Part shown: positions 9,157-61,631 of the stretch, one piece after another | Layout: every line of letters begins with the position of its first letter | How positions within the stretch are numbered: position 1 is the stretch's first letter | Source: Embleya hyalina | GTDB lineage: Bacteria; Actinomycetota; Actinomycetes; Streptomycetales; Streptomycetaceae | Assembly (NCBI RefSeq): GCF_003967355.1 | Contig: NZ_BIFH01000022.1 | Span: 124,001-188,000 of the forward strand | Length of the DNA: 64,000 nucleotides | Reading direction: 5' to 3' | Translations under genes and position numbers: made by a program | Notes under the pieces: generated by a model | Told to the model about the DNA's origin: nothing | Database searches by the model: none | What the model saw: only the letters and a program-made list of their open reading frames with translations

Positions 9157-9278
9157 TTTTCTCGGGCCCGCCGCCACGGACGCCGTTCGCCCGATGGCGG
9201 CGGAAGTGCTTCCACGCTCGGGCACGGTGGTCGTGTGGGGTCGGCTCCGACACCCGACGGGCGGCGGAGCCGACCGGC

Positions 9279-11107: not shown

Positions 11108-11190
11108 GTGTCCCCCATGCGTCGGCGACCCGACGGTGCGTACGGGATGGCACTCCGATGGCCGCCGGATGCGGGTCGGGGCCGAACCGA

Positions 11191-11208
11191 ACTTTACGGC
11201 CGTCAAGT
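11191..11208 (+). repeat. 18-bp near-palindrome copy 4
   Basis: Exact ACTTTACGGCCGTCAAGT, preceded by GA and followed by TC. First of six copies in the 490 bases upstream of parA. Confidence 0.8.
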
Positions 11209-11266
11209 TCGTGGTCGGGCGAGCCATCAGGGGAGGAATCCAGGTGCGTTCGTGGCCCGGAGCCGG

Positions 11267-11284
11267 ACTTTACGGCCGTCAAGT
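11267..11284 (+). repeat. 18-bp near-palindrome copy 5
   Basis: Exact copy, 76 bases from copy 4, same orientation, followed by TT. Confidence 0.8.
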
Positions 11285-11381
11285 TTCGCCCGGGAGCGGG
11301 GGCGCCGCCGTTGAATTCGGTGGGGGAGTGACGAGTTGGCGTGCCGGGGTGGGCGGTGTCCGGAGGTGGGCCGGCACCGAG

Positions 11382-11399
11382 ACTTTACGGCCGTCAAGT
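11382..11399 (+). repeat. 18-bp near-palindrome copy 6
   Basis: Exact copy, 115 bases from copy 5, same orientation, followed by TTTT. Confidence 0.8.
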
Positions 11400-11461
11400 T
11401 TTTCCGAGCACCTGCACGGGACTTCCGGGGGGTTCATGGATGTGCGTGGCGCAGGAGTCGA

Positions 11462-11479
11462 ACTTTACGGCCGTCAAGT
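11462..11479 (+). repeat. 18-bp near-palindrome copy 7
   Basis: Exact copy, 80 bases from copy 6, preceded by GA and followed by TT. Confidence 0.8.
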
Positions 11480-11541
11480 TTCTCCGAGTGCCCATGCGAG
11501 GTTGCCGGGTGTGCTCGGGTGCGCGTGGCGCGAGGGTCCGA

Positions 11542-11559
11542 ACTTTACGGCCGTCAAGT
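11542..11559 (+). repeat. 18-bp near-palindrome copy 8
   Basis: Exact copy, 80 bases from copy 7, preceded by GA and followed by TTT. Confidence 0.8.
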
Positions 11560-11659
11560 TTTGCCTCGGCAGCTGCTCGCGATCCGTGATCTCGGTGGGG
11601 GAGCGGCGGAGTTGCCGCGCTCCCGCTGGGCGGCTTCCGAGCGTCTTCTCGGCAGCGGA

Positions 11660-11677
11660 ACTTTACGGCCGTCAAGT
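11660..11677 (+). repeat. 18-bp near-palindrome copy 9
   Basis: Exact copy, 118 bases from copy 8, preceded by GA and followed by TTTT. Last of the cluster. The 490-base stretch 11191-11677 has no supported gene and looks like a centromere-type array. Confidence 0.8.
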
Positions 11678-11774
11678 TTTTCGCCGACTCGGATCGAGGC
11701 GTCCGCCGTAGTGGCAACCGTCGGGCGTTCGAGGGCGATCCGATGTGTGGGGGGATCGGGCGCTGTCCGCTGGG

Positions 11775-29803: not shown

Positions 29804-30151
29804 ATGGCTCGACGCGTGGTCACGCTCTATATCGACGACATCACCGGCGGCGAGGGGGCGGACGTGGTGACGCATACCTTCAGCTTGGACGGCATCGGTT
29901 ACGAGATCGATCTCGGTATCGACAGCTTTCAGGGGCTGTTGGACGTACTGGGGCCGTATTTCGGCGCCGCCCGCAGGATCGGCACGAACACGAACCGGCG
30001 TCGGAACGCCGGGAAGGGGCAGGCCGCCGTCCTGCGGCCCAGCCCGGCGCGGGTACGCGCGTGGGCGAGCACGCACGGCATCGAGGTCAACACCCGGGGT
30101 CGGTTGTCCACCGAGGTGTTGGCGCGGTACGAGGCGACGCACTCGCTGTAG
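29804..30151 (+). CDS. lsr2: Lsr2-family nucleoid-associated protein
   Basis: 115 aa. The N-terminal dimerisation domain starts MARRVVTLYIDDITGG, and the C-terminal DNA-binding domain is VRAWASTHGIEVNTRGRLSTEV, with the RGR AT-hook-like motif that inserts in the minor groove of A+T-rich DNA. AAGGA lies upstream of the ATG. Lsr2 silences foreign A+T-rich genes in actinomycetes. This is probably an accessory paralogue, given its place beside a TnpB gene and 9 kb from an A+T-richer peptidase gene. Confidence 0.92.
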   Translation: MARRVVTLYIDDITGGEGADVVTHTFSLDGIGYEIDLGIDSFQGLLDVLGPYFGAARRIGTNTNRRRNAGKGQAAVLRPSPARVRAWASTHGIEVNTRGRLSTEVLARYEATHSL

Positions 30152-30195
30152 GACGCGGGCCCGACGCCCGACCCGCGGCGATGATCGGATGCCGT

Positions 30196-30229
30196 GTCGC
30201 CCCGGTCACGATGGCGTGACCGGGGCGAC
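30196..30229. terminator. bidirectional terminator
   Basis: A perfect 15-bp stem (GTCGCCCCGGTCACG and complement) with an ATGG loop sits between the convergent lsr2 and thioester-protein genes. One of the strongest hairpins in the window. Confidence 0.75.
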
Positions 30230-30288
30230 GGCTCACCTCATGCCCCGCGCTCGAAGCGTGGCGTGGCCTCTGCGGGCGGCCGGTGTGT

Positions 30289-31452: not shown

Positions 31453-31777
31453 GTGGGAATCCCCTCGATGAATGCCGAAACGAAATCGACTCGTGCCGGC
31501 TTCACGCCTCGCGTGGCGGCCCCGAGTGGACAGTGGCTTGATCGTAGGAGATCCCACCCGGGTTTTCGCAAGCCGGGAAGGGATTGGGTTTGCGAAATTC
31601 ACACGAACTGTTTTCTTCGTGTCGAAGAATATGCGGAGGGTCATCGGGAATCGCCGTGCGAAATCGCGGATCGGGTCGACCGATCCGATGCCTCGAGGTT
31701 ATTCACGGATGGAAGAGCGCGATGCGAGTTGTTGTGGAGAACGCTGTGCGTACGGGCCTTTCGCCCGGTGTGGAATT
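31453..31777. other. A+T-richer intergenic region
   Basis: About 325 bases without a supported gene, upstream of the thioester protein. The stretch 31560-31730 is visibly richer in A and T than its surroundings (TTTTCG, GAAATTCACACGAA, GTTTTCTTCG). It probably carries the promoter and may attract Lsr2. Confidence 0.4.
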
Positions 31778-31836
31778 CGTCGTGGACACGGACGGCGGGC
31801 GACGGGGAAGAACACCCGCCGTCCGTGTCCACGACG
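31778..31836 (-). terminator. very long hairpin terminator
   Basis: A perfect 22-bp inverted repeat (31778-31799 with 31815-31836) around a 15-base loop, nine bases beyond the stop of the carboxylate-amine ligase gene on the minus strand. Confidence 0.75.
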
Positions 31837-31845
31837 GTCGTGGGG

Positions 31846-33015
31846 TCAGCCGACCAACGGCGGTTGGAGCAGGTGACGCGGTGTCACGGCCGCGGGGTCG
31901 CGGCCACCGGTGGTCGGCGCGTCGGAGCCGACCGGGCGAAACGTCCTCGTCCGGGAGATGAGCAGATCGACCGCGTGTCGAGGGTCGGCGGCGCTGCGGC
32001 GGATGTCGTGCGCGCCGCCGCCTTGGGCGAGCAGGTCCGCGGTGGCCTGCCGGACGAATGCGAGGTCGCCGGCGGCGGAGAGTTCGGGTGCCAGGTCCTC
32101 GACGAGTCTCCACACCGTGGTGCGCGCGGATTCGGCGGTCATCGTCGTCGGATCGACCAGGAGTCCGTCGAGTCCCGAACGTGCGGCACGCCAGGTGGCC
32201 GCTCGCAGCCACACCTCCGGACAGCTCGGCATGGTCCGGTCGTTCGCCGCCGCGGCGACGCCCCTATGGACCAACGCGCGGAAGACGGCGGCGATCAGCA
32301 CCGAGGTGTTCACGTCCGGACAGGCGTCACAGATGCGCATCTCGATGGTGGGCGCGTGCGCGGACAACCGCAGGTCCTGGTAGTACATGCCGGTGTCGGT
32401 GATCACCCCCGACCGCACGAGGCCCTCGACCAGGGCGTCGTACTCACGGGCGGAGCGAAATCCGGTGGCCGGGCCCGCCGAGGGCCATCGTTGCCACACC
32501 ATGTTGCGCCAGCTCGCGTAGCCGGTGTCCTGTCCGAGCCAGTAGGGCGAACTCGCGGACAGGGCGAGCAGCGTGGGCAGATGCGGGGAGATCCAGGCCA
32601 TGGCGCGGGCGGCGATGTCGCGGTCGTCGACCTGGACGTGTACGTGCAGACCGCAGATGACCTGCTCCCTGGCGACCCGGGCGTAGTCGCGGGCGATGGC
32701 GACGTATCGCTCGCCGGCGCTCTGCGGCGCGTCGTCCAGGTGCGCGATGGGCGCGGTGCCCGAGGCGATGACCGCCACGCCGGCGCGTTCGGCGGCGTCG
32801 GCCAGGAGTGTGCGCGAGGCGACGAGGTCGGCGTGGAGGTCGGACAGGTTCGCGTGCGGACGGCTGTTCGTCTCGATGCAGGTTTCCTTGGCCTCACGGG
32901 TGAATACGGCCGCCGGAAGCTCGGCGAGCAGTTCCGTCGCGGCCGGGCTCAGGCGTCGAGTCCGTCGGTCCACGATGTGGAACTCCTCTTCGACGCCCAC
33001 GGTCTGAATCGACAT
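31846..33015 (-). CDS. glutamate-cysteine ligase-like carboxylate-amine ligase (YbdK/GCS2)
   Basis: 389 aa. The start MSIQTVGVEEEFHIVD carries the GVEEE motif of GCS2-type ligases, followed by CIETNSRPHANLSDL, CGLHVHVQVDD (metal/ATP-binding His pair) and the APTIEMRICDACPDV block. These ATP-dependent enzymes join an amino-acid carboxylate to an amine; some make gamma-glutamylcysteine, in mycobacteria for ergothioneine. The substrate here is uncertain because no pathway partner is adjacent. ATG at 33015 with AAGGGAACAG upstream. A small gene upstream reads into its 5' end. Confidence 0.88.
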   Translation of the reverse strand: MSIQTVGVEEEFHIVDRRTRRLSPAATELLAELPAAVFTREAKETCIETNSRPHANLSDLHADLVASRTLLADAAERAGVAVIASGTAPIAHLDDAPQSAGERYVAIARDYARVAREQVICGLHVHVQVDDRDIAARAMAWISPHLPTLLALSASSPYWLGQDTGYASWRNMVWQRWPSAGPATGFRSAREYDALVEGLVRSGVITDTGMYYQDLRLSAHAPTIEMRICDACPDVNTSVLIAAVFRALVHRGVAAAANDRTMPSCPEVWLRAATWRAARSGLDGLLVDPTTMTAESARTTVWRLVEDLAPELSAAGDLAFVRQATADLLAQGGGAHDIRRSAADPRHAVDLLISRTRTFRPVGSDAPTTGGRDPAAVTPRHLLQPPLVG

Positions 33016-44343: not shown

Positions 44344-45015
44344 GTGACGGAGTCCACGACCGGGAGGTACGACGCCGCTTTGGACACGTTGGAGGACATC
44401 GGCTGGACGGTGCTCGAAGCGGATGAGGAGGACGTGCCCGAGGCGAACCCGTTTCTGCGGCTGCCCGTCGACGAGGACGACAGCTTCGACGCGGACGGCA
44501 ACGTCGTTCGGGAACTGCGAGTGACCTGGCGCGGAAGCGCCGCCGACGCGCAGGTCGCCTTCGCCGCCCAGGGCCTCGTCCTCGTCATCCCCCTCACACA
44601 GGACGAGGGCGTCGCCACCCTGCTGCCGCAGGACACCGCCGCGCGTGACTTGCAGAGGATCATGCGGGTGTTCGCCGGGCTCCGCGCGCGGGGTTATGTC
44701 GCCGAGGGAGCCTTGGCCTGGGCCAACACGGACGGCTGGGCGTCCGTCCGAAGCCGTGGCGGTGACGCGGGCGCCGTGTTCTGGACGACACAGAATCACG
44801 AGAACTGCTTCGATCGGGACTGCGACCTGCTGTTGCCCCTGCCCCTGCAGTGGGCCGGGGACGAACGGCGACTCGCCGAGGCGTTGGCGGTCTGCGGCCT
44901 CGGTGTCGAGGTGCCCGATTCCGAGGACGTCGTCTTCTACCTCCTCCCCCGTTCGGATGCTTCGAGTGCCTCCGGTGTCTGCCGACGGACGTTGGCGTCG
45001 ACGGGGGCGGGGTGA
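44344..45015 (+). CDS. hypothetical acidic protein
   Basis: 223 aa, starting GTG eight bases after the RipA-like stop, so probably cotranscribed. Acidic N-terminal half (EADEEDVPEANPF, VDEDDSFDADG), then RELRVTWRGSAADAQVAF and a Cys pair in NCFDRDCDLLLPL. No signal peptide. I do not recognise the family. Confidence 0.6.
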   Translation: MTESTTGRYDAALDTLEDIGWTVLEADEEDVPEANPFLRLPVDEDDSFDADGNVVRELRVTWRGSAADAQVAFAAQGLVLVIPLTQDEGVATLLPQDTAARDLQRIMRVFAGLRARGYVAEGALAWANTDGWASVRSRGGDAGAVFWTTQNHENCFDRDCDLLLPLPLQWAGDERRLAEALAVCGLGVEVPDSEDVVFYLLPRSDASSASGVCRRTLASTGAG

Positions 45016-45300
45016 TCGACTGTCGCGGAATTCCTATGCGCGGGCGGCTCGACAGGCGACCATGTCCGACGTCGAGGATGGCTCGGTCACCGCTCGACGG
45101 GGCCGGATCCGGCGCTCCCCGCGAGGGAGTTCCCGGTGTGGAGGGATCGTGTCCCGGTTCATCGCGACCGGTCGCGCTCGTCGCGGACCCGGTGCGACCC
45201 TTCACCCGGGTGTCACACCGGCCGGGATCGAGACCGCGGTATCACCCGGCTCGAATCCCGCGACCGGGGTGCGATGTATCCCGAAACCTCATGTGGTCGA

Positions 45301-45530
45301 GGCGAGTTCGCATGCCGTGGGAGGTCGTCCGCGACTGCTCCGGGGTGGCGGGCCCGCGGCGCCACGCGATGTGGGCGGCCGCGCCCGTCCGGGCGCAGCC
45401 GCCTGCGGTACTCATGGAACCCGAGGTCGCCAACGGGGGGTCGCGACATTCCATGGCTCCCGCCCGCCAACCATCGCCGAACGGCGGCGACGCCGCCAAG
45501 GAAGAACGCGACACCGAGGAACGTCGGTGT
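45301..45530 (-). repeat. dispersed 230-bp repeat, copy A
   Basis: Matches 56561-56793 along its length, with the last 140 bases nearly identical. It contains two conserved hairpins: CATGGAA pairing with TTCCATG, and ACACCGA pairing with TCGGTGT at the end. In the frame open on the minus strand, substitutions between copies fall on all codon positions, so it is unlikely to be protein-coding. The strand shown is a guess. The surrounding 45016-45812 has no supported gene. Confidence 0.75.
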
Positions 45531-45812
45531 ACGAATGCGCGGACGGGATCCGAGGCCCCCGACGACACCACAAGAAGGTCTTGGGCTACCTCACACGGAC
45601 CGGTGGTCTGCGAGGGATGTGCGGCGTGCCGCGAGGCCGGTGCGGACGCATAGCGTTGATCCACACGACCCCGTCGCCCAGCCCCACGCACCGGCGGCAC
45701 GGTCCCGGTGGCGGCGAAGGGTGGTCTCGCGCCCGCCGTCGTGGGGTGCCGTGTCGACGGCATCGCGGTACCCGCCCCGTTTGCCTTCCATCCCTTTGCG
45801 AGGATCCGTCGC

Positions 45813-46571
45813 ATGTTCGTGTTCGCGCACGTGAGTGATATCCATATCGACGGCACGCGCCGCAGCGCCGCGCGCGCCCGCACCGTGATGAGCTATCTCG
45901 ACGCGTTTCCCGGGGACCTGGACGCGATCCTGGTGACCGGGGACGTCGCCGGCAACGGCCTGCCGGCCGAGTATGTCGGGGCCCGCACGCTCTTGACCTC
46001 TCGTCATCCGGTGTTGGCGCTGCCCGGCAACCAGGATGTGCGCGGGTTGTTTCGTGCGGGACTGCTGGGCGACGCGGGCGGGGTCGACAGCGACGCTCCG
46101 ATCAACCGGGTGTACCGCTCGGCCAACGCCACATACGTGTTGTGCGACTGGCTGAGTCCGGGCCGCGTCGACGAACCGCCGACCGATGAGACGCTGACCT
46201 GGCTGAGCAGCATCCTGGACGCGTCGACCGGCGCCTCCCCGGTGTTCGTGGCCTTCCATCATCCGCCGGTGGAACTGGGCGCCCCCGACGCCGAGCCGGT
46301 CCGGCGTTTCCACGCCGACCGGCTCGCCGAGGTGGTCGCGGATCGGCCGGACGTGGTGGCGTTCCTGTGCGGACACGCGCACGCTCCGGTGGCCACGACG
46401 TTCGCGGGCAGGCCGCTGATCGTCGCGCCGGGAGTGGTCTCGGGAGCCCGGCTGCCCTGGGAACACCCGGTCGGGGACGTCTCCGTCGACCGCACGATCC
46501 CGCCCGCGCTCGCCTTCCACGTCCTCGACGACGCGGGCAGACTGACCACCCATTACCGGGTTCTCCGCTGA
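45813..46571 (+). CDS. calcineurin-like metallophosphoesterase
   Basis: 252 aa, class III cyclic-nucleotide phosphodiesterase-like. Metal-binding motifs in order: HVSDIHID, VTGDVAGNG, LPGNQD, FVAFHHPPVE and CGHAHAP. The usual GNHD is GNQD, so the His that helps catalysis is replaced by Gln. Related enzymes cleave cAMP or other phosphodiesters. ATG at 45813 with GAGGATCC upstream. It stands alone, with a dispersed repeat 280 bases upstream. Confidence 0.85.
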   Translation: MFVFAHVSDIHIDGTRRSAARARTVMSYLDAFPGDLDAILVTGDVAGNGLPAEYVGARTLLTSRHPVLALPGNQDVRGLFRAGLLGDAGGVDSDAPINRVYRSANATYVLCDWLSPGRVDEPPTDETLTWLSSILDASTGASPVFVAFHHPPVELGAPDAEPVRRFHADRLAEVVADRPDVVAFLCGHAHAPVATTFAGRPLIVAPGVVSGARLPWEHPVGDVSVDRTIPPALAFHVLDDAGRLTTHYRVLR

Positions 46572-46820
46572 GTGGCCGTGAGACGGTTTCCGGAAGCCTC
46601 GTCGAGACATCCCGATGCCGGATCGGAAACGGTCACGGCAGCGGTATCCGGAGTCGATTCAAGGCGTACATTGAATGCGTGATATCGGATGAGAAAAAGT
46701 AAAAACACGCCATAAATGCGTCGATGCGGCCGGCCGAAAACCGTGCTATCAATCATTTGTCCCTCCGCGTCCGGTCGAAGCGAACGATGCGCGGACAAGA
46801 GCGATAAATCGGGGAACACG

Positions 46821-47903
46821 ATGCCATCAGTGGTCCGCAATCGACGTTCACAACGGGTCGCCGCACTCGCGGTCTCGGCAGGCGTCCTGGTCGGCGTCCA
46901 GATGGGCGCGGCGGCGCTGGTGACCGCCGCGCCGGTCGCCGAACCCGCCTTCGACAACGGCAGCGAGCGTTTGAACGTACGCCCGGGCGACACGGAGACC
47001 GTGACCGTGAAGGCGCCCAAGGGAGACACCGCGACCTTCACCTTCGACAAGGCGTTGACGGGGGTGACCATCAAGCCGAGTTCCACCTGCTCCGGGTCCG
47101 GCCTGGTGTACACGTGCGCGGCCAACACCCTCGGGCTCGACAGCGAGTTGTGGAACTTCGCGCTCACCGCCGCTGCCGGGGTCACGGTTCCGCAGAACGT
47201 GAACCTGACCGTGACCGACAAGACCGGCAAGACCCTCAAGGGCACCGTCTCGGTCAACCACCGCAGCCAACTGGAGCCGCTGGCGCAGAGCCTCGTCTAC
47301 GTGAACACCCAGACGGGCGTCGTCCAGGACGGCGGCATCCCGTTCAAGGTCACCAACCTGGGCAAGGACCCGAGCCCGGCGAAGCTCAAGATCACCGCCG
47401 TGTCCAACGTGCGCTTCACCGGCCCCTCCACCGGCGACGGCACGTGTGACGTGCAACCGACGGTCGTACAGTGCACCTTCGGTGCGATCGCGGGCACCAC
47501 GGGCCAGGCGGCCTTCAAGGTCCCGGCCGTCTTCTCGGGCAAGGCACAGGATCTCGAACTCGAGGTGAGCGGCCCCAACTGGCAGCAGGATCCCAGCCGG
47601 GCCACCGCTCGGGCGCACTACACCAGCGACGTCCAGGCACCGCCGACCACGTCGCCCACGGCCACGCCGACCGGGACCGGATCGCCGACCCCGACGTCGA
47701 CCGCGACGCCCACGACGTCGGACGATCCGACCGCGAGCGAGTCCGTGATACCCATCTCCCAGGGCGACGACGGGTCGGAGCTCGCCGAGACCGGTGGCGG
47801 CGGCAACGAACTGCCCCTGATTCTCTCGGGCGTCGCGCTGCTCGCGATCGGGGTGGCGGCCGCCCTGTACGCCCGGCGGCGACGCGGCATCGACGGCATC
47901 TGA
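46821..47903 (+). CDS. LAETG-anchored surface protein
   Basis: 360 aa. Signal peptide ending VTAAPVA, then about 250 residues of beta-rich Ig-like domains (VTVPQNVNLTVTDKTGKTLKG, CDVQPTVVQCTFGAI), a Thr/Pro stalk, the sortase motif LAETGGGGN, a hydrophobic helix and RRRR tail. It should be covalently linked to the cell wall by a class E sortase. The 160 bases upstream are A+T-richer. Its anchor is like that of the thioester protein at 30.3 kb. Confidence 0.8.
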   Translation: MPSVVRNRRSQRVAALAVSAGVLVGVQMGAAALVTAAPVAEPAFDNGSERLNVRPGDTETVTVKAPKGDTATFTFDKALTGVTIKPSSTCSGSGLVYTCAANTLGLDSELWNFALTAAAGVTVPQNVNLTVTDKTGKTLKGTVSVNHRSQLEPLAQSLVYVNTQTGVVQDGGIPFKVTNLGKDPSPAKLKITAVSNVRFTGPSTGDGTCDVQPTVVQCTFGAIAGTTGQAAFKVPAVFSGKAQDLELEVSGPNWQQDPSRATARAHYTSDVQAPPTTSPTATPTGTGSPTPTSTATPTTSDDPTASESVIPISQGDDGSELAETGGGGNELPLILSGVALLAIGVAAALYARRRRGIDGI

Positions 47904-48072
47904 CGCGGACGTTCGGTCGCGGTCCCGGGAACGCCCGCGTCGGGGCCGCGATCGACCGTACGGCTTGGCGGGTATTTCCGAGCCGCGACCTCTCCCTTTT
48001 GATGGGATGTATTTCGGCCGTCACCCGATGGCCCGAGTGCATCGAGCGATCGCGACGAAGGGGGAATTCGGC

Positions 48073-49605
48073 ATGGTCGAGACGACCATCCGATCCTTTC
48101 GATTCACGCTCGATCCCACGGCCGACCAGGAGATGAACCTCACGCGCCACGCCGGCGCGGCACGATGGGCCTACAACTGGGCCCTGGGGCACAAGATCGC
48201 GGCCTACGATCTTCGCAGAGCGGAGATTTCGGCATTGATCGAGAGCGGGCACACCGAGGCTTCGGCGAAAAAGGCGACGACGGTTCGCATTCCGAGCAAG
48301 GCGGCCATTCAAAAACATCTGAACAGGATCAAGGGCGACTCCCGTCGCCACCTTCCCGAGCCCCAGGCGTACGGGCCGCATCCGCCCTGCCCCTGGTGGC
48401 ACGAGGTCTCGACGCACGCGTTCCAATCCGCGATGACGGACTGCGACACCGCCTGGGACAACTGGGTGAAGTCCGTCGCCGGCAAACGCGCGGGCCCCAG
48501 GGTGGGCATGCCCCGCTTCAAGCGCAAGGGCAGGGCCCGCGACTCGTTCCGTCTGTACGGCATCGGCCTGCGCCTGGACGGCTACCGTCGGATCAGCCTT
48601 CCCCGCATCGGCTCGGTGCGCCTGCACGATTCGGCCCGCCGACTGGGACGGCTGATCACGCGGGGGATCGCGACCATCAAGAACGTGACCGTCACGCGTC
48701 GCGGATCCCGCTGGTACGCCTGCGTGTTGACCGAAGTGACCGACGCGAGCCCGCCCACGCGAGCGCGGCGCGCCGGTGGCACGGTCGGGGTGGACCTGGG
48801 GGTGCGATGGTTGATCACGCTCTCCCGACCACTGGATCCCGCCGTGCCCGACAGCGACACGACGCCGAACCCGCGGTGGATCGAACGAGACGCCCGACGC
48901 CTGCGCAAGGCACATCGCAGGTTCTCCCGCACCGTCCGCGGCTCACAGCGCCGTCGCCGGGCCGCCCGGGCACTGGGCGCGATCCACGCCCGCGTCGCCG
49001 AACGCCGGGCGGGGCATCTGCATCGACTCACCAAGCGCATCACCACCACCTTCGACGTCATCGGCCTCGAACGCTTCGATCTCGTCCGGGCGAGCGCGTC
49101 CGCGCGCGGGACGGTCGAGCAACCCGGAACCAACGTCGGCGTCAAGTCCCGCTTCAACCGCCTCCTGCGGGACGCGGCCCTGGGCGAGACCCGCCGCCAG
49201 ATCGACTACAAGGCACGCCGCTACGGCTCGACCGTCGTACACCTCGCCCCCGGAACGCCCACCAATGCGATCTGTTCGTCGTGCGCGTGGGAAAACCCAC
49301 CCCCGCGCCTGGGCACCGATCGTTTCGCGTGTGGGAAGTGCGGCCTGCGCGTACGCCGCGCCGTCAACTCGGCGCGCAACATCGAACGATTGACACATCG
49401 ATCGGTACACGTCGCCCCTGACACAGAGGAGACGCGAAACGCTCGTGGAGTGGTCTCGTCCGACGCCTCACCGGCGCCGAACGCGACCACGGGGAAGCGA
49501 GAAGGCCCGCAAGGGTCACCCCGACGGAGCAATCCGTCGGTCACCGGGTCCACCCCGGTCGAGTCGGAGACCGCCACCAGTGCGGGCATCCCGATCACCC
49601 GATGA
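48073..49605 (+). CDS. tnpB: IS200/IS605-family TnpB, second copy, third RuvC aspartate missing
   Basis: 510 aa from ATG 48073 (GGGGGAATTC upstream). RuvC-I Asp in VGVDLGVRWL and RuvC-II Glu in VIGLERFDLV are kept. The zinc finger is CSSCAWENP to CGKCG. RuvC-III reads RRAVNSARN where the family has DRDxNAAxN, the same loss as in copy 1. N-terminal FTLDPTADQE and HAGAARWAYNW are typical TnpB. No tnpA nearby. The two TnpBs share gene length and motif order but differ widely, so they are related, independently placed elements. The C-terminal tail overlaps the guide-RNA-like region. Confidence 0.85.
   Translation: MVETTIRSFRFTLDPTADQEMNLTRHAGAARWAYNWALGHKIAAYDLRRAEISALIESGHTEASAKKATTVRIPSKAAIQKHLNRIKGDSRRHLPEPQAYGPHPPCPWWHEVSTHAFQSAMTDCDTAWDNWVKSVAGKRAGPRVGMPRFKRKGRARDSFRLYGIGLRLDGYRRISLPRIGSVRLHDSARRLGRLITRGIATIKNVTVTRRGSRWYACVLTEVTDASPPTRARRAGGTVGVDLGVRWLITLSRPLDPAVPDSDTTPNPRWIERDARRLRKAHRRFSRTVRGSQRRRRAARALGAIHARVAERRAGHLHRLTKRITTTFDVIGLERFDLVRASASARGTVEQPGTNVGVKSRFNRLLRDAALGETRRQIDYKARRYGSTVVHLAPGTPTNAICSSCAWENPPPRLGTDRFACGKCGLRVRRAVNSARNIERLTHRSVHVAPDTEETRNARGVVSSDASPAPNATTGKREGPQGSPRRSNPSVTGSTPVESETATSAGIPITR
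49409..49541 (+). ncRNA. putative omega/reRNA of TnpB copy 2
   Basis: Matches the end of TnpB copy 1 in the same blocks. It ends with a perfect 8-bp stem and GCAA tetraloop (49521-49540), preceded by a small CCC-GCAA-GGG hairpin. The internal stem TGGTC/GACCA replaces GGGCG/CGCCC of copy 1, so pairing is kept while sequence changes. The guide would start after about 49541. Confidence 0.65.
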
Positions 49606-49628
49606 CCCGGGCACCCTCGCCCCGAGGC

Positions 49629-49659
49629 CCATCGGGCCGATGGTACGCGGCGGCGTACC
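49629..49659. promoter_or_regulatory. stacked palindromes before marR, possible operator
   Basis: Two adjoining inverted repeats: CCATCGG with CCGATGG (49629-49643) and GGTACGC with GCGTACC (49642-49659). They lie 26-56 bases upstream of the MarR start codon. MarR proteins often repress their own gene through such palindromes. Alternatively they are a terminator of the TnpB gene. Confidence 0.4.
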
Positions 49660-49684
49660 GTCGGCCGGTGAGTATCGTTGTGCC

Positions 49685-50173
49685 ATGGCCCAGACCCAGC
49701 GCGCGAACTCGGGCGACGCCCTCGCCCCCACCCGCCGCGACCCGGACCGTCCGGACCTGGCGGCGATGGTCGTACCGCTCGGACGGGCTCTGATGGCCGC
49801 CGAACTCCCCGTGCTGCGCGCACACGACCTGACCATGTGGGCGTACACGGTGCTGCTCGCCCTGGGCGACGAACCGGTGCGCTCCCAGGCCACGTTGGCC
49901 GAATCCATCGGCGCGGACAAGACGCGTGTGATCGCCGTACTGGACGACCTGGAACAGCGGGGCCTGATCCGTCGCCGCCCCGATCCGGCCGACCGGCGCG
50001 CCCGCCTGCTGTCGCTGACCGAGCAGGGCCACCGGGTACGCGCGGCCGTACGATCCGGGATCCGCGTCCGTGAGGAACGCCTCTTGGCGCGCCTCCCGGA
50101 CGCCGACCGACTCGGCTTCCTGAACGCGCTGCGGACCCTGTCCGCCCTACCACCCGAGACCATCGCCGACTGA
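49685..50173 (+). CDS. MarR-family transcriptional regulator
   Basis: 162 aa winged-helix dimer. The HTH is SQATLAESIGADKTRVIAVLDDLEQRGLI, followed by the wing RRRPDPADRRARLLSLTEQG, the signature of the family. ATG at 49685. It binds palindromic operators and is usually released by phenolic ligands. The next gene is convergent, so the targets are not evident from position. Confidence 0.9.
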   Translation: MAQTQRANSGDALAPTRRDPDRPDLAAMVVPLGRALMAAELPVLRAHDLTMWAYTVLLALGDEPVRSQATLAESIGADKTRVIAVLDDLEQRGLIRRRPDPADRRARLLSLTEQGHRVRAAVRSGIRVREERLLARLPDADRLGFLNALRTLSALPPETIAD

Positions 50174-50275
50174 ACCCACGACGATCGCGCGGGCGAGCGG
50201 GCGAGGCCGGCGCTCATCGAGGGGTGAACCGCTCCGGGGCACGGTCGCCAAGGGCACGATCGGTTGGCGCGAACG

Positions 50276-50596
50276 CTACGTCGTGGCGGGGGACCGGGCG
50301 GACGACGCCCCGCCCGGCGACTCCGTCGGGAGTCGCCGATCCTCCTCCGCCGCGGACCTCGCCACGGCGGTCAGCCGGTACACCCGTCGGGTCGTACCCT
50401 CCACCACCCGCCGATCGCACTCCAACAGCCCCTCGGCCTCCAGCCGGGAAAGGAGCGGATAGACCATCCCCGCGGTCACGACGTCCCCGTGTTCCGTCAG
50501 ATCCCGCAGCACCCCCGCGCCGTGCACGGCGCCGCGCTCGTCGATCACCCGCAGGACGCGCGAACTCAACGATTCGCGTGCCGTATCGCCCGTCAC
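50276..50596 (-). CDS. PadR-like transcriptional regulator
   Basis: 106 aa. Winged HTH of PadR type: SSRVLRVIDERGAVHGAGVLRDL, VVTAGMVYPLLSRLEAEGLLE, then a basic wing VVEGTTRRVYRLT. GTG at 50596 with GAGAGG upstream is chosen; the frame upstream is low complexity. Targets unknown; it is divergent from an unknown gene at 50784. Confidence 0.75.
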   Translation of the reverse strand: MTGDTARESLSSRVLRVIDERGAVHGAGVLRDLTEHGDVVTAGMVYPLLSRLEAEGLLECDRRVVEGTTRRVYRLTAVARSAAEEDRRLPTESPGGASSARSPATT

Positions 50597-50783
50597 GCGC
50601 GCCTCTCCCGAGTGGTACGCGTCTCGCGCGATTCGGGCCGTGGCATCGGGGATTTCCAGGTGTCGTGTTCCACGAGACGTACCTTGGCCTCGACGCCACC
50701 GGACCCGATTGTACAAACCCGCCCGCCGGCCCCACGGCGGTAAAGCGGTTGGTCACCCCCGGTCGACGTGCTCTACTGACCGC

Positions 50784-51572
50784 ATGGAAGTCGGCGACGG
50801 TCGGATGCGGTTGCGCGTGACGAGTCATCCCGTGGCGGACCCGGAGTCCGGACTCGGGCGGATCCTGAGCACCGGACACATGCTCCGCGACACCGTCGTC
50901 CACCCGCCCGACCTGCGAGTCGCGTACCTGAAGGCGAATCGCGCCGATCTCCTGCGGCTGGGCGCGCTGTTCCGCGTCGCCGCCACGAGCCCGCACAGCG
51001 CGATCCACGTCCCGGTGCCGCCGGGCGCGCGACCGATGGCGACCTCCGCCGGGCGGGACATTCGTCCGCTGCCCTTGCTCGTGGCCCGCGAGGACACCGG
51101 ACTGCGGACCCGCGACTGGCCGAAGTTGCGGCATCGGATGCGCCGAACCTCGACGCCGTCGCGTGTGACGGCTCCGGCACCTCGACCGGCCGACCGCGAC
51201 GACGACGTCCTGCGCCGAGCCGACCGCCACCCCGCCCGCCTCGCCGAATGCGCCGCGACGATGGTCATCACCGCCCGTGCCGAAGTCCTGTTCATGATGG
51301 GGGACTGGCTCACCGCCGTCGGAGACCGGGTGGCCGGGGACCGCCACATCCACCGGACCGGCGAAAGCTTCCTCGGCGACATGGTCGGCTTCTTCCACCC
51401 CGACGGCGCGGACCGACCGATGCACGCGTTCTGCGTGGTCGCCGTCGACCCGTTCTTCCACCGGGCGCGCCGGCTCCGGCCACCGGGTGGGGGGCCTTCG
51501 TCGGGGGAACGTTCGCCAACCCCGCGACGACCCACCCGCGGACGCACGACCGCGAACCCGGCCCACCGCTGA
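50784..51572 (+). CDS. hypothetical protein
   Basis: 262 aa. An early stretch reads LGRILSTGHMLRDTVVHPPDLRVAYLKANRADLLRLGALFRV; a later one, ARLAECAATMVITARAEVLFMMGDWLTAVGDRVAGDRHIHR. The C-terminal 30 residues are Arg/Pro-rich and weakly coding. No signal peptide or family recognised. Confidence 0.5.
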   Translation: MEVGDGRMRLRVTSHPVADPESGLGRILSTGHMLRDTVVHPPDLRVAYLKANRADLLRLGALFRVAATSPHSAIHVPVPPGARPMATSAGRDIRPLPLLVAREDTGLRTRDWPKLRHRMRRTSTPSRVTAPAPRPADRDDDVLRRADRHPARLAECAATMVITARAEVLFMMGDWLTAVGDRVAGDRHIHRTGESFLGDMVGFFHPDGADRPMHAFCVVAVDPFFHRARRLRPPGGGPSSGERSPTPRRPTRGRTTANPAHR

Positions 51573-51603
51573 CACCGGACTCGATCGGGTGTCGACGGAT
51601 GGC

Positions 51604-52806
51604 TCAGTCCTGCCAGTGGAACAGCAGGGTGTCGACGGTCAGGGGCTCGCGGTCGCCGAAGTGGTAGACGCACAGATCGGTGACTCGGATCGCGCCGGTG
51701 GCGTCGTCGATCCAGCGGAAGCCGGCCGCCTCGAGGGCCCGACGGGCGACAGGGTGGTCTTCGTTGCCGGTGGCGAACCGGCCGAGGGTGCTGATGAGCA
51801 GCTCGCCCTCGTCGCACACGATCACGTGGTAGGTCCCGTCGCCCTGTCGATGGTGATCGCCGCAGGAGACCGGTGGCATCGGCGCGAGGCCCGCCCGCGT
51901 CAACGCCGCCGTCGCGCGGCGCAGTTGCCCGTCCACGTCGGGACGCGCGGGTGGCTCGGCGCACAGGGCTTCGACGCGCCATCGCGGATCGCTCCGCCGT
52001 TGGCAACCACCCGCGTACTCGTGCACGATCGCGCTTCGGACCTCGTCGTCCAGGCCGGACACCTCGACCCGCGGGTGCCCCAGCGCGGCGTGGATGCGGC
52101 GGGTCTCGTCCGTGTCGCCGGTGAGGCGATGCAGCGCGAACACGGCCCACGACTTCGCCTCGACCGTCGGCGCCTCGTCGAGGTAACCGCGCAGGCGTGC
52201 CGGATCCGACAGGAGCGACTGGGCGAGGTACGCGACGTCACGGTCGGGGTCGGTCAGCGTTTCCGTCACGTCCGCTCCGGCACGATGGCGCATCCGGACG
52301 CGGAACATACGATCCTCGGGCCGGTCGCCGAGATCGGTCAGGATCGGCTCGACCCCGTAGCGCGCGACCAGGGCCTCCAGCCCGGCCTCGCCGATCCGCT
52401 GCCGGCGTCGCCACGCGGACGCCGCCAGCGTCGCCAACTCGGGCGCGGCCGAGCGGTCACCGACTTCGCCGCGGGCCCGAAGGATCGCCTCGGGCAGGCC
52501 GTACGAACGCTCCCGCCGCCCGTCCACGTCCCGCAGCCAGGGCATCAACTCCGGCCGTTCCACGAGCAGTTCGAGTAGCGCGATGCGAACCTCGGCCACC
52601 TCGTCCCGGTCCCGGACCCGTGCGACCAGGTCGGCGACCCGGTGCTCCGGAACCCGCCCGGTCAGTGCGCGCACGCAGGGCCCGCGTCGCCACCACGGGT
52701 GTGTCGGGTCGGCCGCGTAGCGGGCGAGTACGTCCGCGTCGAGCGCGCGCAGGCCGGCGACGTCCACCCGGCCTGCGGCCGGTATCAACACCTCGACGCT
52801 GCCCAT
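51604..52806 (-). CDS. HEAT-like repeat protein, hypothetical
   Basis: 400 aa. About the first 270 residues are helical repeats with patterns such as HRVADLVARVRDRDEVAEVRIALLELL and VAYLAQSLLSDPARL, resembling HEAT/armadillo scaffolds. The C-terminal 110 residues form a separate beta-rich domain (GTYHVIVCDEGELLISTLGRFA to LTVDTLLFHWQD) with Cys and His residues. No signal peptide. Probably a protein-binding scaffold; partner unknown. ATG at 52806. Confidence 0.65.
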   Translation of the reverse strand: MGSVEVLIPAAGRVDVAGLRALDADVLARYAADPTHPWWRRGPCVRALTGRVPEHRVADLVARVRDRDEVAEVRIALLELLVERPELMPWLRDVDGRRERSYGLPEAILRARGEVGDRSAAPELATLAASAWRRRQRIGEAGLEALVARYGVEPILTDLGDRPEDRMFRVRMRHRAGADVTETLTDPDRDVAYLAQSLLSDPARLRGYLDEAPTVEAKSWAVFALHRLTGDTDETRRIHAALGHPRVEVSGLDDEVRSAIVHEYAGGCQRRSDPRWRVEALCAEPPARPDVDGQLRRATAALTRAGLAPMPPVSCGDHHRQGDGTYHVIVCDEGELLISTLGRFATGNEDHPVARRALEAAGFRWIDDATGAIRVTDLCVYHFGDREPLTVDTLLFHWQD

Positions 52807-52858
52807 TCACGGATGCTATCCCTCGAACGATCCTTCCGAACCCGAACATCCCGGTCCG

Positions 52859-53507
52859 TCACGCGACCTCGGCGCAGGTGGGCGAGAAGGCGGATCGTGC
52901 ACGCGGCGGCGACGGTGTGGGCGAAGTAGCGGACGGCCGAGAGGAATCCGATTTGTCGGTGGCAAGGAAACCGACGGCGATGATGCGGAAGCCGGAGACC
53001 ACGTCGGCGTGCCGATCGGCCGGGGCCGCCTGGATGATCGTGGTCAGGCCGCCCGAGGTATGCCAGGCCCTGGCCGATGCCGGCGATTGCGGTCGCGACC
53101 AGGAGGAGCGTCGGCGAGGACACGCCGCCGGCGACACCCGGCAGCACCAACCCGAGTGCCGACAGCGGCAGCCCGCCGAGTTCCGGACGCCGGGCCGGTT
53201 TGCCGTGGCCGGCGAGTTGGGCGAGGGCGGAGCACACGAGCACGAGCGCGACGGCGGCTCCGCCGAGCAGGAGATTCGTGCTGCCGGACAGGGTTGCCGT
53301 GTACGTGGGCACGAGGGTCGGGAACAGCCCGATCACGGCGAACGCCAGGAAGCTGGTGGTGCCGCTGGTGGCGAACACCGGTCGCAGGGCGGCGAGCACG
53401 TCGGGGCGGCGGGCGCGCCGGCGTTGCGGCGTGGGCGGCTCCGAGAGCATGCGGATCGCGATCGTCGCGGGGATCAGGGCGACCTCGCCGTATCGCAGGG
53501 ACGCGAC
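52859..53507 (-). pseudogene. decayed MFS transporter
   Basis: Coding for the C-terminal half of a major facilitator transporter, with LIPATIAIRMLSEPP, VFATSGTTSFLAFAVIGLFPTLVPTY and LLVATAIAGIGQGLAYL. After GLAYL the reading moves to another frame (GGLTTIIQAAPADRHADVVSGFR) because of one extra G near 53053. Near 52960 it returns to the first frame (FLSAVRYFAHTVAAACTIRLL). The N-terminal half is missing. It is a clear pseudogene. Confidence 0.75.
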
Positions 53508-53919
53508 GTGATCGCACGGCGATGACCGACATCGGCCGATCCCCTGGCCGCCCGAAGCCGCGCCCAGTGGAAATGTTCGAAGTGGCGGAAGTCGGCGAGA
53601 TCGTCCGCCGGCTTCGGACACCCCGGATCGAGCGCGAACGCAGGATCGTCCCCATCCGGATTCTCGGGCGCGACATTGGGCCCTTCCCGGACGATGTCGG
53701 GCACCGGGTCGCGTTCTTCCTATGGCGGGTCTCGCGGCTCCGTTCACACTGATCACCCACTCGGTGCCGCGGAACGGCTCACCGACGACGCGTTCGTCGC
53801 CGTCGTCCGAGTCGTCACCGACCCCATACGAAGCCGCGCGGCTTCGGCTCCCCCCGACGCGATGCGGTCAACGCCCGGCTCCGGTGGTTTCGGTGAACGG
53901 GTGATCGGGCGGAAGGAAC
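53508..53919. other. intergenic region with possible gene remnant
   Basis: About 410 bases with no intact gene. On the minus strand near 53620-53665 a short stretch reads APENPDGDD, the same nine residues as in the gene at 60771-61328, which suggests a remnant of a related gene. The end, GGAAGGA, is the ribosome binding site of the patatin-like gene. Confidence 0.35.
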
Positions 53920-55251
53920 ATGATGGCGGGTGCAGGCGGGCCGGGGATGGTCGCCAGAGCGACCCTTGCGACGATCACCCCCTACGTCGACGCCGCGTCC
54001 ACCGCCGTTGCGGCCGAGGATCGCGGGAAGCCCGTGAACCCGCTTCGCGCCTCCGCCGTCGAGCGACTCGTGTGGCGGGTACCGCCGTCCGATCGGGACA
54101 ACGTGCCCGACCGTCTACCGACGGGGCGCCCCCCGGTCATCGCCGTCGTCGGCTCCAGCGGCTTCCGCGCCAGTTGGCAGGCGGGTGTCCTTGACGCCTT
54201 GGAGGACATCGTCGACCCGATCCGGCTGGACCTCGCGTCGGGCGGAACGATCCCCGGCCTGGCGCTCGCCGCCGGGATCGGCAAACACCGGCGGCGCATC
54301 ATCAACGCCGGAGCGCCGACCGGCGAGGCCATCACGCGGGTCGGCGGCCCGACTTGGTACGAGCGTGGAAACCTCGACCTCGCGGGCATCTACCACCTGG
54401 ACGGGATCGAACGCTGGCTCGCCGCCTGGCTGGAGTGGGCGGGGATCCGGACGTTTCGCGACCTGCGCTACCGTCCGGGGGACAGCGCCCCGCGCGGCGT
54501 CACGCACCGGGTGGGCATCGGCGTCGTCGTCTGGCGCACGGCCGGCAGCCACCCGCGACGGTTCACCGCGGCGGAACTTCGCGACCCGCCGACCATTCGA
54601 CGGTTGTTCCGGTGGGCGTTCTTCGGCCGTCAGTTCCCCTGGAAACACTTTCGTCAGATGTGGATCCCCGACACCGTCGGCGAGCATCTTCCGTGGCTGG
54701 CCGGGGAGATCGACGACCACAGTCCGGCCTTCTGGGCACGCGTGTCCATGAGCCAGTGGCCGTTCTTCCTGCCGACCGTGCTCCAGGATCCGGACACCGG
54801 ACACCTGGTGTTCCTGGCGGACGGCGGCCACATTGACAACCAGCCCAGCCTGTTCAACGACGGACGTGTCCCCGACCATCCGATCATCAACCCGAGGTTG
54901 ACGCAGAACGGTCGGCAGAACACTCGCGCCCAGCGCGAACGCGACGCCCGGCGCATGCCGTTCGGGCACGTAGCCCGCTTCCCGACCACCGCGGACACCC
55001 GTGTCGGACTGTCGGCCGGCGCGCGACTGGACTGGGCGGCCCGCGACCGCATGTGGCTCACCGGCCTGACCCAGGGTCGGCGATCGTTGCCCCGCGACGT
55101 GCGCCTGATGGCGTACCGCTACGCCTCGGCCCGGCAGGCGGCCGAGCGAGGCCTGCGGACGCGGATCGAGGTGCCCGGTCTGCACGGCTTCCAGGCGATC
55201 GCCGCCGCGGAACGCCCGGGCCGCAAGGTGATCATCGCCCTGCGCAGTTGA
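53920..55251 (+). CDS. patatin-like protein with degenerate active site
   Basis: 443 aa. The order and spacing follow the patatin fold: a glycine-rich oxyanion segment (here VVGSSGFRASWQAGVLDAL), the nucleophile elbow (here LASGGTIPGLALAAG, against GTSAGA) and the catalytic Asp motif (FLADGGHIDNQP). The Ser and Asp are kept, but both glycine motifs are altered. It may be a weak or changed lipid hydrolase. No signal peptide. ATG at 53920 or 53923 after GGAAGGA. Confidence 0.65.
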   Translation: MMAGAGGPGMVARATLATITPYVDAASTAVAAEDRGKPVNPLRASAVERLVWRVPPSDRDNVPDRLPTGRPPVIAVVGSSGFRASWQAGVLDALEDIVDPIRLDLASGGTIPGLALAAGIGKHRRRIINAGAPTGEAITRVGGPTWYERGNLDLAGIYHLDGIERWLAAWLEWAGIRTFRDLRYRPGDSAPRGVTHRVGIGVVVWRTAGSHPRRFTAAELRDPPTIRRLFRWAFFGRQFPWKHFRQMWIPDTVGEHLPWLAGEIDDHSPAFWARVSMSQWPFFLPTVLQDPDTGHLVFLADGGHIDNQPSLFNDGRVPDHPIINPRLTQNGRQNTRAQRERDARRMPFGHVARFPTTADTRVGLSAGARLDWAARDRMWLTGLTQGRRSLPRDVRLMAYRYASARQAAERGLRTRIEVPGLHGFQAIAAAERPGRKVIIALRS

Positions 55252-55376
55252 GCCGCAGCCGACGTCGCGGCGGCGCTTACCGAGGTCAGCGCACGAGGGC
55301 GCGCAACAAAGGAAGCCATCGTCCTTCTCCTGGACCTCGCCGCGCCCCCGGGGCGATCGACCTTCGTGGGGTCGGG

Positions 55377-56180
55377 CTACCAGATGGACGCGACCCACTC
55401 GGGGTGATCGATGAAGGGGTTGCGGTTGTGTTGGTAGTCGCGGTGGATGAGGTCGTTGCGACGTCGCTCGAAGGCGTCGGGCGGGTCCTGGGCGCTCCAG
55501 GCCTTGAGTACGGTGATTCGTCCGATGGCCGGGGCGGATCCGTTGCCCACACGGTCGTTGGGCTCCAGGTCGGGGAAGCCGTCGCCGCCGTCCCAGCGCA
55601 CGGCCATGTAGAGGATCATGCGGGCGACATCGCCCTTGACCGCGTCGCGCGGCTCGAACGAGTCGCCGTCGGTGCGGCTGCCCGGTGCGCCGGTGACCGG
55701 GGAACCACCGTTGTCGAAGTCCTTGTCGCCCCGGACGCCGTTGACCGAGACGTCCTCCGGACGCAGATGATGCAGGTCGGTGCCGGGGCCGGTCGCGGTT
55801 CCGAAGCCGCCGTGGCTCTTGGCCCACACGTGTTCGCGGTTCCAGTCGCCGTTGCCGCCGCCCGATCGATTCTTGGCGATCGACCGGCCGGTGTAGAGCT
55901 CGATCACGTGCGACGGGTCGGCGGGATCCTCGTCGGTCGCACGCAACGCGTTCCAGACGCCGTCGTAGTTCACGGCGGAGGTGCCGCGACTGATGATGGT
56001 GTGCAGCGCGGCCTTCAACGCGGGCCCGCTCAGGCCCAGTGCCGACGCGTAGTAGTCGTCCGCCGCGGCCGTGTCCTTGCCGACGGGTGGTGCGTCGGGG
56101 GCGGCCTGTGCGGTCAGGGGGGTCACGAGGGATATCAGCATCGCGCCGAGCGCGATTCCGACAGGCGGTCCGAGACGCAT
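55377..56180 (-). CDS. secreted endonuclease I family protein
   Basis: 267 aa. Signal peptide ending TAQAAP, then the EndA-type fold with NREHVWAKSHGGFG, TDLHHLRPEDVSVNGVRGDKDFDNGG and HNRNPFIDHPEW; the His-Asn pairs bind Mg and cut DNA. The enzyme should act outside the cell on DNA or RNA, for nutrient use or biofilm turnover. Its gene is convergent with the patatin-like gene. Confidence 0.9.
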   Translation of the reverse strand: MRLGPPVGIALGAMLISLVTPLTAQAAPDAPPVGKDTAAADDYYASALGLSGPALKAALHTIISRGTSAVNYDGVWNALRATDEDPADPSHVIELYTGRSIAKNRSGGGNGDWNREHVWAKSHGGFGTATGPGTDLHHLRPEDVSVNGVRGDKDFDNGGSPVTGAPGSRTDGDSFEPRDAVKGDVARMILYMAVRWDGGDGFPDLEPNDRVGNGSAPAIGRITVLKAWSAQDPPDAFERRRNDLIHRDYQHNRNPFIDHPEWVASIW

Positions 56181-56560
56181 GAGGGCTCCACGGGTGGTGG
56201 GGGCGACGTGGGTCGTTGGGGCGCGCGCCGTGCGGTCGACGGGGTGCCGTGGCGTGAACCACCCCGATCGAGGGGGCCGTTCCCGCCGTGCCGATCACGA
56301 TCGTCCGCTCACCCCGAATGCCCGGACCCCGCCGCTGGACGGGACACGCGAAACGAGAAGACGTCGCTTGTCCAGAGTGACCGGCCCTTCCCACCGACGG
56401 GACCGGCCATCGGGTGAACATCTCGTGACGAGATCCCCCGGCGGCCCCGACGATCACGAGCGAGTCGGACGGCCGGCACATCCACCGGACCGGACCATCG
56501 CACCGGGGAGGTGCGGCATGCCCACCGACGGGGCCCGGGACGGCGACAGTCGATCACCGC

Positions 56561-56793
56561 GGCGAGTTCGGCCGTCGTGGGAGCCCGCCCGCAACCGCTT
56601 CGGCGTGCGGGCGGGGCGCGGTGCCACGCGGTGTGGGCGACCGCGCCCCGTCCAGGCGCAGTCGCCTGCGGTACTCATGGAACCCGAGGTCGCCAACGGG
56701 GGGTTGCGACATTCCATGGCTTCCGCCCGTCAACCATCGCCGACCGGCGGCCACGTCGCCAAGGAAGAACGCGACACCGAAGAACGTCGGTGT
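56561..56793 (-). repeat. dispersed 230-bp repeat, copy B
   Basis: Second copy of the element at 45301-45530. Both hairpins are intact: CATGGAA/TTCCATG, and ACACCGA/TCGGTGT, where the only change is in the loop. The copy lies in the 640-base gap between the endonuclease gene and alkB; the rest of that gap (56181-56560) has no supported gene. Confidence 0.75.
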
Positions 56794-56818
56794 GGGAGTG
56801 GTGAGCAAGGGTGGGCGC

Positions 56819-57484
56819 TCACCGATCGGTGTCGGTGTCGGTGAGGGTGCGCAAGGTCACCGATACGCGCCGCCCGCGTGGGACGCGGCCGTCGACGCCC
56901 GGGTCGCTCCTGCGCGCGGCGATGGCGTGGCGCCAGGTGAACCGGGCCGGACCGGTCATGACCAGCAGGCTGCCCGGCGCGAGCGGCACCGAGAGCTTCG
57001 TGCCGCCCTCGGGATCGGTGAAGTCCATGAGACAGCCGGAGCCCAACGAGATCGCGGCGACGATCGGACCGAAACAGGGCACGCAGTCGACGTGGGCGCT
57101 GATCCCTTGTCCGGGCAGGTACTCGTTGACGATCACCTGCTCCGGCTCGCGGTCCATCAGGCCCTCGCGCACGAGCCGGACGGCCGCCGCCCGCGCCCAC
57201 GCCGGAAGCGGCGGCACCGTCGCCTCCCCGTCGATCGCCACCCGGCGACGGCCGTATTCGTACCGGCGGCCGTAGTGCTGCACGCGTCGCCGCAACTGCG
57301 TCGACCACGGCGCGGCGTCGATGTCTCGGAGCAGGTCCCGGCAGGCGTCGGCGGTTAGCCAGTCGGCGAGGCATCGCAGCCCGGGCACCTCGGCGGCGGC
57401 GGTCGAGCCGCTCACGCCGGGATCCACCGGACGGACGGTGTCGATCCGTGCCGCGGCCGGCACCGAGTCCCCGATGCTGCTCAT
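56819..57484 (-). CDS. AlkB-like 2-oxoglutarate/Fe(II) dioxygenase
   Basis: 221 aa. The double-stranded beta-helix iron site is HVDC (HxD) with the distal His in WRHAIA, and the 2-oxoglutarate Arg pair is in RRVSVTLRTL. NEYLPGQGISAHVD and PLAPGSLLVMTGPARFTWRH match the AlkB family. These enzymes remove alkyl groups from DNA or RNA bases by oxidation. It is divergent from the BRCT-WD40 gene, with about 110 bases between. Confidence 0.9.
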   Translation of the reverse strand: MSSIGDSVPAAARIDTVRPVDPGVSGSTAAAEVPGLRCLADWLTADACRDLLRDIDAAPWSTQLRRRVQHYGRRYEYGRRRVAIDGEATVPPLPAWARAAAVRLVREGLMDREPEQVIVNEYLPGQGISAHVDCVPCFGPIVAAISLGSGCLMDFTDPEGGTKLSVPLAPGSLLVMTGPARFTWRHAIAARRSDPGVDGRVPRGRRVSVTLRTLTDTDTDR

Positions 57485-57593
57485 GCGCGGATGCTACCGC
57501 TCGCGAACGACAGGGCGGCTTCCGAGAAAGGCGGCGTCGCGGCGGCTTCGACGAGAGCGGCTGGTGTCCGCGTCCACCGTTAGGGTCTCGGCC

Positions 57594-61462: not shown

Positions 61463-61480
61463 ACTTTACGGCCGTCAAGT
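61463..61480 (+). repeat. 18-bp near-palindrome copy 10, isolated
   Basis: Exact ACTTTACGGCCGTCAAGT in a gene-free region, 49.8 kb from the parAB cluster and in the same orientation. The T-rich 3' flank of the other copies is missing. Confidence 0.8.
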
Positions 61481-61631
61481 CGCGGTGTCGCGTCGGGTCG
61501 CACCGGACGTGAGGATGGCGCGTTTGTCCATCCGGCGCCAACGATCCGTATGCCACGATCACCGGGACCGGCCCCGTCCCCGGGAAGCCGGCTTCGGTAC
61601 ATGGCCGAGGCCGTCGTGCCTTCCCGCGCCG

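Follow-up and report, generated by a model that had tools for sequence, protein, structure and literature searches.

Small RNAs with C-rich loops and short non-autonomous mobile elements are the described systems closest to a repeat that is present twice in a 64,000-nt stretch of Embleya hyalina (contig NZ_BIFH01000022.1, positions 124,001 to 188,000 of the forward strand; hereafter the window). The 6C RNA of Mycobacterium reportedly pairs with several mRNAs through C-rich loops. Miniature inverted-repeat transposable elements (MITEs) are short, noncoding, and dispersed elements bounded by terminal inverted repeats and target-site duplications, and palindrome-bearing derivatives of IS200/IS605 carry hairpins, have no inverted-repeat ends, and are asymmetric between strands. 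In an excerpt of PMC3765725, C-tipped hairpins are predicted for conserved Streptomyces RNAs, and RNAIII of Staphylococcus acts via C-rich loops.

The Embleya element is a lineage-restricted noncoding repeat, and most likely either a gene for a structured RNA or the small remnant of a mobile element. With the C-rich-loop RNAs of actinomycetes (6C RNA, RF01066; scr5583 and scr1434 type of Streptomyces, excerpt of PMC3765725) it shares a predicted stable hairpin, a C-run at the tip, and an actinobacterial host, but the C-run is in one of its two hairpins only, its RNA is a prediction, and the likeness to scr5583 and scr1434 is one of predicted form. At the element, the RF01066 covariance model gave no match with E of 5 or less; in the whole genome it had four with E of 10 or less, spread over contigs C23, C26, and C38, the best with 46 and 38.7 bits against a cut-off of 47. 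As in MITEs, the copies are short, noncoding, dispersed, and bounded, but there are only two of them in full length, and neither terminal inverted repeats nor a target duplication were seen. The MITE-like element proposed, beside a structured RNA and a regulatory cassette, in an earlier reading of the sequence alone (the sequence-only reading) was not sustained in the strict sense. Hairpins, the lack of inverted-repeat ends, and strand asymmetry are shared with the IS200/IS605 derivatives.

The copies, about 230 bp each, are 11 kb apart in direct orientation on the same contig (Table 1). Copy 2 is 88% identical to copy 1 across all 233 bases (BLAST in own genome, E 1.8e-76), which is far beyond chance and bears out the homology of these two intervals claimed before. 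Borders of the unit are sharp, with ungapped identity of 0.26–0.40 over the 20–100 bases immediately outside. Its ends, read by eye, are GGCGAGTTCG and GTCGGTGT, and the right end is also the end of the ACACCGA/TCGGTGT hairpin. Divergence is uneven. The last 140 bases form a conserved core with 9 of 140 positions different, in agreement with the roughly nine substitutions counted in the sequence-only reading; the core is 94% identical and the left part about 78% (Fisher p 0.003, with the split picked post hoc and 92 left columns taken into the table, 90 of them ungapped).

Conservation at the protein level is not supported, in line with the sequence-only reading. In the six-frame count there were 1–4 synonymous codon changes against 5–7 others, with no synonymous excess in any frame. 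Among the 8 or 9 changes within whole codons, 2–4 are at third positions, according to the frame. In both copies the core can be read through without a stop in some frames (e.g., MEPEVANGG... on the plus strand), which could point to a short protein or a decayed gene fragment; however, in the four frames open in both copies 2–3 codon changes are synonymous and 5–6 are not, and long open frames are common in such G+C-rich DNA. Actinomycete genes usually show very high third-position G+C, and in the core of copy 1 the G+C content by codon position is 0.59–0.78 in every frame. No Pfam match was found in the 10 stop-to-stop frames scanned of the 30 listed, each of the six frames being covered in at least one copy. 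Nor was the pattern expected of a protein domain seen, with numerous copies within coding genes and all in a single frame. Protein coding was rejected on the substitution counts and the Pfam scan, and a protein or gene fragment is very improbable.

On the minus strand, to which the consensus fold had pointed, a stretch of 93 or 94 bases is predicted to fold into two adjacent hairpins with identical layout in both copies. The stretch 45372-45464 has a folding energy of -58.3 kcal/mol (z -3.57) and the stretch 56634-56727 one of -53.7 kcal/mol (z -4.49), with 0 of 200 shuffles as good in each case; the two z-scores depend on each other. On the plus strand the same stretches reached z -1.85 (9/200) and -2.12 (6/200). 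When the hairpin-pair stretch was rerun with 400 shuffles, z was -3.51 and -4.01 on the minus strand and -1.87 and -2.33 on the plus strand. This strand bias is partly explained by several G-U pairs of the minus-strand fold, which would be mismatches on the plus strand. In consensus folding against column shuffles, 14 minus-strand and 4 plus-strand sub-windows reached z -1.8 (30 overlapping sub-windows per strand), and the best one comprised minus-strand columns 46-165 (z -3.64, 0/150). The five substitutions in the hairpin pair break no pair on the minus strand and one on the plus strand.

Both stems reported before, CATGGAA/TTCCATG (45413-45419 and 45449-45455 in copy 1) and ACACCGA/TCGGTGT (45511-45517 and 45524-45530), are present and unchanged at the equivalent positions of copy 2. 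The 13-bp hairpin at 45374-45403 is absent from the sequence-only reading. That reading had placed one change in a loop, which is correct for 45518 in the loop of the second stem; another change, 45442, located between the arms of the first stem, sits in a pair of the minus-strand consensus (G-U to A-U). Positions 45378 and 45399 in the 13-bp hairpin are changed together, from G-C in copy 1 to A-U in copy 2 in the consensus fold. The element thus has two bounded copies, no coding signal, and a common, strand-biased predicted double hairpin.

Table 1. Features of the repeat in coordinates of the window
Feature	Position	Strand	Basis
Repeat copy 1	45301..45530	- (strand whose hairpin stretch folds better)	sequence, BLAST, alignment, fold
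Repeat copy 2	56561..56793	- (strand whose hairpin stretch folds better)	sequence, BLAST, alignment, fold
Conserved core, copy 1	45391..45530	no strand	9/140 differences to copy 2
Conserved core, copy 2	56654..56793	no strand	alignment
Long 59-nt hairpin, copy 1; CATGGAA/TTCCATG and inner GTCGC/GCGAC stem; six-C tip, five unpaired	45405..45463	-	predicted fold
Long hairpin, copy 2, same predicted structure	56668..56726	-	predicted fold
13-bp hairpin, copy 1, straddling the left border of the core	45374..45403	-	consensus fold, single folds
13-bp hairpin, copy 2; one G-C pair of copy 1 is A-U	56636..56666	-	consensus fold, single folds
Terminal hairpin ACACCGA/TCGGTGT, copy 1, overlapping a minus-strand terminator-like site	45511..45530	.	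fold, terminator scan
Terminal hairpin ACACCGA/TCGGTGT, copy 2, overlapping a minus-strand terminator-like site	56774..56793	.	fold, terminator scan

A genome-wide search for further copies, suggested in the sequence-only reading, found two full copies in the 12.05-Mb genome, and the covariance model of the core recognized the same two. The sole other DNA match in the genome is 40 bases long (C22:56133-56172, E 5.6e-5, 45.5 bits). The element was not found in the three other genomes of the genus, where the two matches are pieces of 40 and 46 bases. Samples of 394 family, 396 relatives, and 394 class genomes, which overlap and include the own genome, gave only pieces of 26–73 bases besides the own copies. 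Short BLAST matches were present in 10 of 393 other family genomes (E up to 1e-3), and in 4 of 395 other relatives and 4 of 393 other class genomes (E up to 1e-5). As distant relatives of the element, 21 short-match loci were rejected. Thirteen of them were aligned, over 27–94 columns with local scores of 46–63, and did not extend along the element; in the remaining eight (L009-L016), which were screened only, nothing except the element copies scored above 60. The hairpin covariance model R2 recovered the two own copies alone from the 394 family genomes up to E 0.1, under strict filters that lose weak matches.

Outside these samples, no DNA match up to E 0.01 was found in plasmids and phages, a search in which records very near the own genome were possibly excluded, and no Rfam match up to E 5 was found at the element (45000-57500). 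The hairpin DNA pattern had eight matches in genome_contigs, none titled as actinobacteria, and one in viral_contigs, all of them unaligned and judged by title or not at all; the longer hairpin pattern had none in viral_contigs. No paper on the element was found, going by titles and the openings of abstracts. By these sequence comparisons, the repeat is a lineage-restricted noncoding module.

The explanation tentatively preferred is that this noncoding module is kept for a small structured RNA from the minus strand. It is short, would have been duplicated as one unit on what is probably an Embleya-type plasmid, and would be transcribed, the minus strand being the putative RNA strand and the RNA perhaps 150–230 nt long. 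Such an RNA could act in trans, the C-run that tips its long hairpin pairing with G-rich stretches of mRNAs as in RNAIII of Staphylococcus (excerpt of PMC3765725), and the six-C tip would be the likely contact site. If transcribed, the module would qualify as a candidate regulatory RNA of a large plasmid in an actinomycete, and its two copies would serve as a natural internal control. A more specific version is decidedly unlikely, namely that the copies represent a duplicated, previously undescribed plasmid-borne small RNA family of Embleya with C-tipped 59-nt and 13-bp hairpins, which regulates plasmid or host genes via their G-rich start regions and spreads as a compact unit.

A number of results weigh against an RNA gene. 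The structured RNA proposed in the sequence-only reading is backed by the 93/94-base minus-strand stretch, which folds better than shuffles in both copies, but not by the whole 140-base core, which folds like shuffles (plus strand z 0.56 and -0.07, minus strand 0.23 and -1.35), so the well-folding stretch is a selected one. Moreover, 28 of 2842 windows of the same size in the 64-kb stretch (about 1%) reach z -3.5 or lower. Support is therefore moderate, and the double hairpin is a fair candidate structure and not a proven one. At full length, consensus folding barely separates the strands (minus z -2.61, 0/300; plus z -2.42, 2/300), and the numbers of broken pairs are as expected: 11 and 11 on the minus strand against 12.6 and 10.7, and 10 and 8 on the plus strand against 9.9 and 10.3. 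Broken pairs in the core stretch are likewise as many as expected. In the hairpin pair, the probability of no broken pair is 0.037 with the structure of copy 1 and 0.25 with that of copy 2. Covariance analysis, also proposed before, has almost no power with two sequences. Covariation rests on the single pair 45378/45399, which also pairs on the plus strand, and one such double change is reached in 12–26% of random placements.

Sequence context adds to these points. No promoter-like site was found at either copy in a sigma-70 scan, which does not cover other promoter types, and the terminator-like site of each copy is found at the putative RNA's 5' end, which is the wrong end. In copy 2 this predicted site could end transcription of the oxygenase gene; in copy 1, unlike copy 2, no gene is placed where it would serve. 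No neighbour gene common to both copies was seen in either orientation, and no homologue elsewhere was found in the genomes searched. The excerpt of PMC3765725 leaves open whether C-rich loops work in this way in G+C-rich Streptomyces.

That the repeat is a remnant or non-autonomous form of a mobile element without terminal inverted repeats, e.g., of the IS200/IS605 or IS110 kind, is possible but doubtful. Its hairpins would then be recognized in single-stranded DNA or be derived from the end of a parent element, and strand-biased hairpins are expected in single-strand transposition. The copies are small, sharply bounded, dispersed, and intergenic, their right end is at a hairpin, the hairpins are strand-biased, and a TnpB-type gene lies between them. 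On the other hand, the 12.05-Mb genome has just the two full copies and the 40-base match of 45.5 bits, and the terminal hairpin pattern, with up to three mismatches allowed, occurs at only two other places, each with three mismatches. Provided that the ends are correctly placed, the bases adjoining the left end are not the same at the two copies (TCGA and CCGC), unlike in IS200/IS605 derivatives. By eye, no target-site duplication was seen in the flanks of either copy, and for terminal inverted repeats only a gapped 7-base resemblance of the left end to the reverse-complemented right end was seen. No parent element with the same ends was found by DNA search of the own genome or by the terminal hairpin pattern; very short shared ends could escape these searches, and Y1 and IS110-type transposases were not searched for. 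If the copies are such a remnant, they would point to a small type of element in this group that lacks inverted-repeat ends; on either reading, RNA or remnant, the evidence supports a candidate only.

The absence of a transposase reported in the sequence-only reading needs qualifying: a TnpB-type gene (47965-49605; OrfB_IS605 and Cas12f1-like zinc domain) is present between the copies, one of which is 2.4 kb before and the other 7 kb after it. The repeat was rejected as a TnpB fragment. The best of four similarity tests, a 36-base inverted match (I4) in the same reading frame, was equalled by 15 of 300 shuffles for copy 2 on the minus strand, and in the other three tests of the tnpB region (47901-49750), 126, 159, and 251 of 300 shuffles were as good (Markov-type shuffles). 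A TnpB-associated guide RNA was rejected too, as the copies are neither located at the 3' end of tnpB nor more than weakly similar to that region. The TnpB gene is probably unrelated to the repeat copies, judging from these comparisons. Against an attachment-site reading counts the 88% identity of the repeats, and no integrase was identified among the seven proteins scanned between the copies, other frames there being unscanned.

A neutral duplicate, i.e., intergenic DNA that recombination duplicated a single time and that is now decaying, its uneven divergence being due to chance or gene conversion, is rather unlikely. It would agree with the direct orientation of both copies on a single contig, with the lack of relatives found and of common neighbour genes, with the marked divergence of the left part, and with full-length broken pairs at random expectation and a whole core that folds like shuffles. 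It does not readily account for a core of 94% identity beside a left part of about 78%, nor for the common strand-biased fold, which in the selected stretch has z of -3.5 or below for each copy, although these z-scores are not independent.

Both copies are intergenic. Copy 1 is flanked by an open frame that ends at 45015 and by a gene for a calcineurin-like phosphoesterase, and copy 2 by genes for endonuclease I and for an AlkB-type 2OG-Fe(II) oxygenase. The phosphoesterase gene (45813-46568, downstream of copy 1) has paralogues at C16:108616 (72%) and C22:241199 (68%) of the own genome, and relatives with 70–72% in all three other genomes of the genus. The rest of the copy 1 locus is unmatched in those three genomes, apart from pieces of about 27–44 bases, and the copy 2 region has only 46-base pieces in two of the three. 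In the plasmid collection, DNA relatives of the flanking genes were found in Embleya sp. NBC_00888 and NBC_00896. Four stretches compared from these records match the window in single genes or the par locus only, and consequently no empty site could be read there; the RNA model found nothing over noise in them (best 15.5 bits, E 2.3). The records outside the four stretches were covered by the plasmid DNA search only.

The window encodes parA and parB. The sequence ACTTTACGGCCGTCAAGTT occurs nine times without mismatch and always in the same orientation around and inside parAB (9139-11678), twice in frame within the 3' part of parB (NLTAVK). To our knowledge, sites of this type within parB are unusual. 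A tenth copy with one mismatch is at 61463-61481, and no other was found in the genome at up to one mismatch, nor any in viral_contigs. In the plasmid collection, ParA finds its best match in Embleya sp. NBC_00896, on a linear record of 3.13 Mb (78.7% identity across 90% of the query), and a 7.4-kb stretch around its parA has four copies of ACTTTACGGCCGTCAAGTT, each with one mismatch. The array is probably a plasmid centromere. Given parAB, the repeated sites, and the likeness to NBC_00896, the contig is probably part of a large Embleya-type plasmid, a location that fits the narrow distribution of the repeat.

Two further hairpins were recorded in the window. The inverted repeat at 31760-31875 is perfect, pairs over about 23–24 bp when folded by prediction (minus strand z -7.09, strong on the plus strand too), and is perhaps a two-way terminator. 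The strong hairpin at 30145-30260 (z -3.53), whose stem is uninterrupted for about 15 bp, is perhaps a terminator as well.

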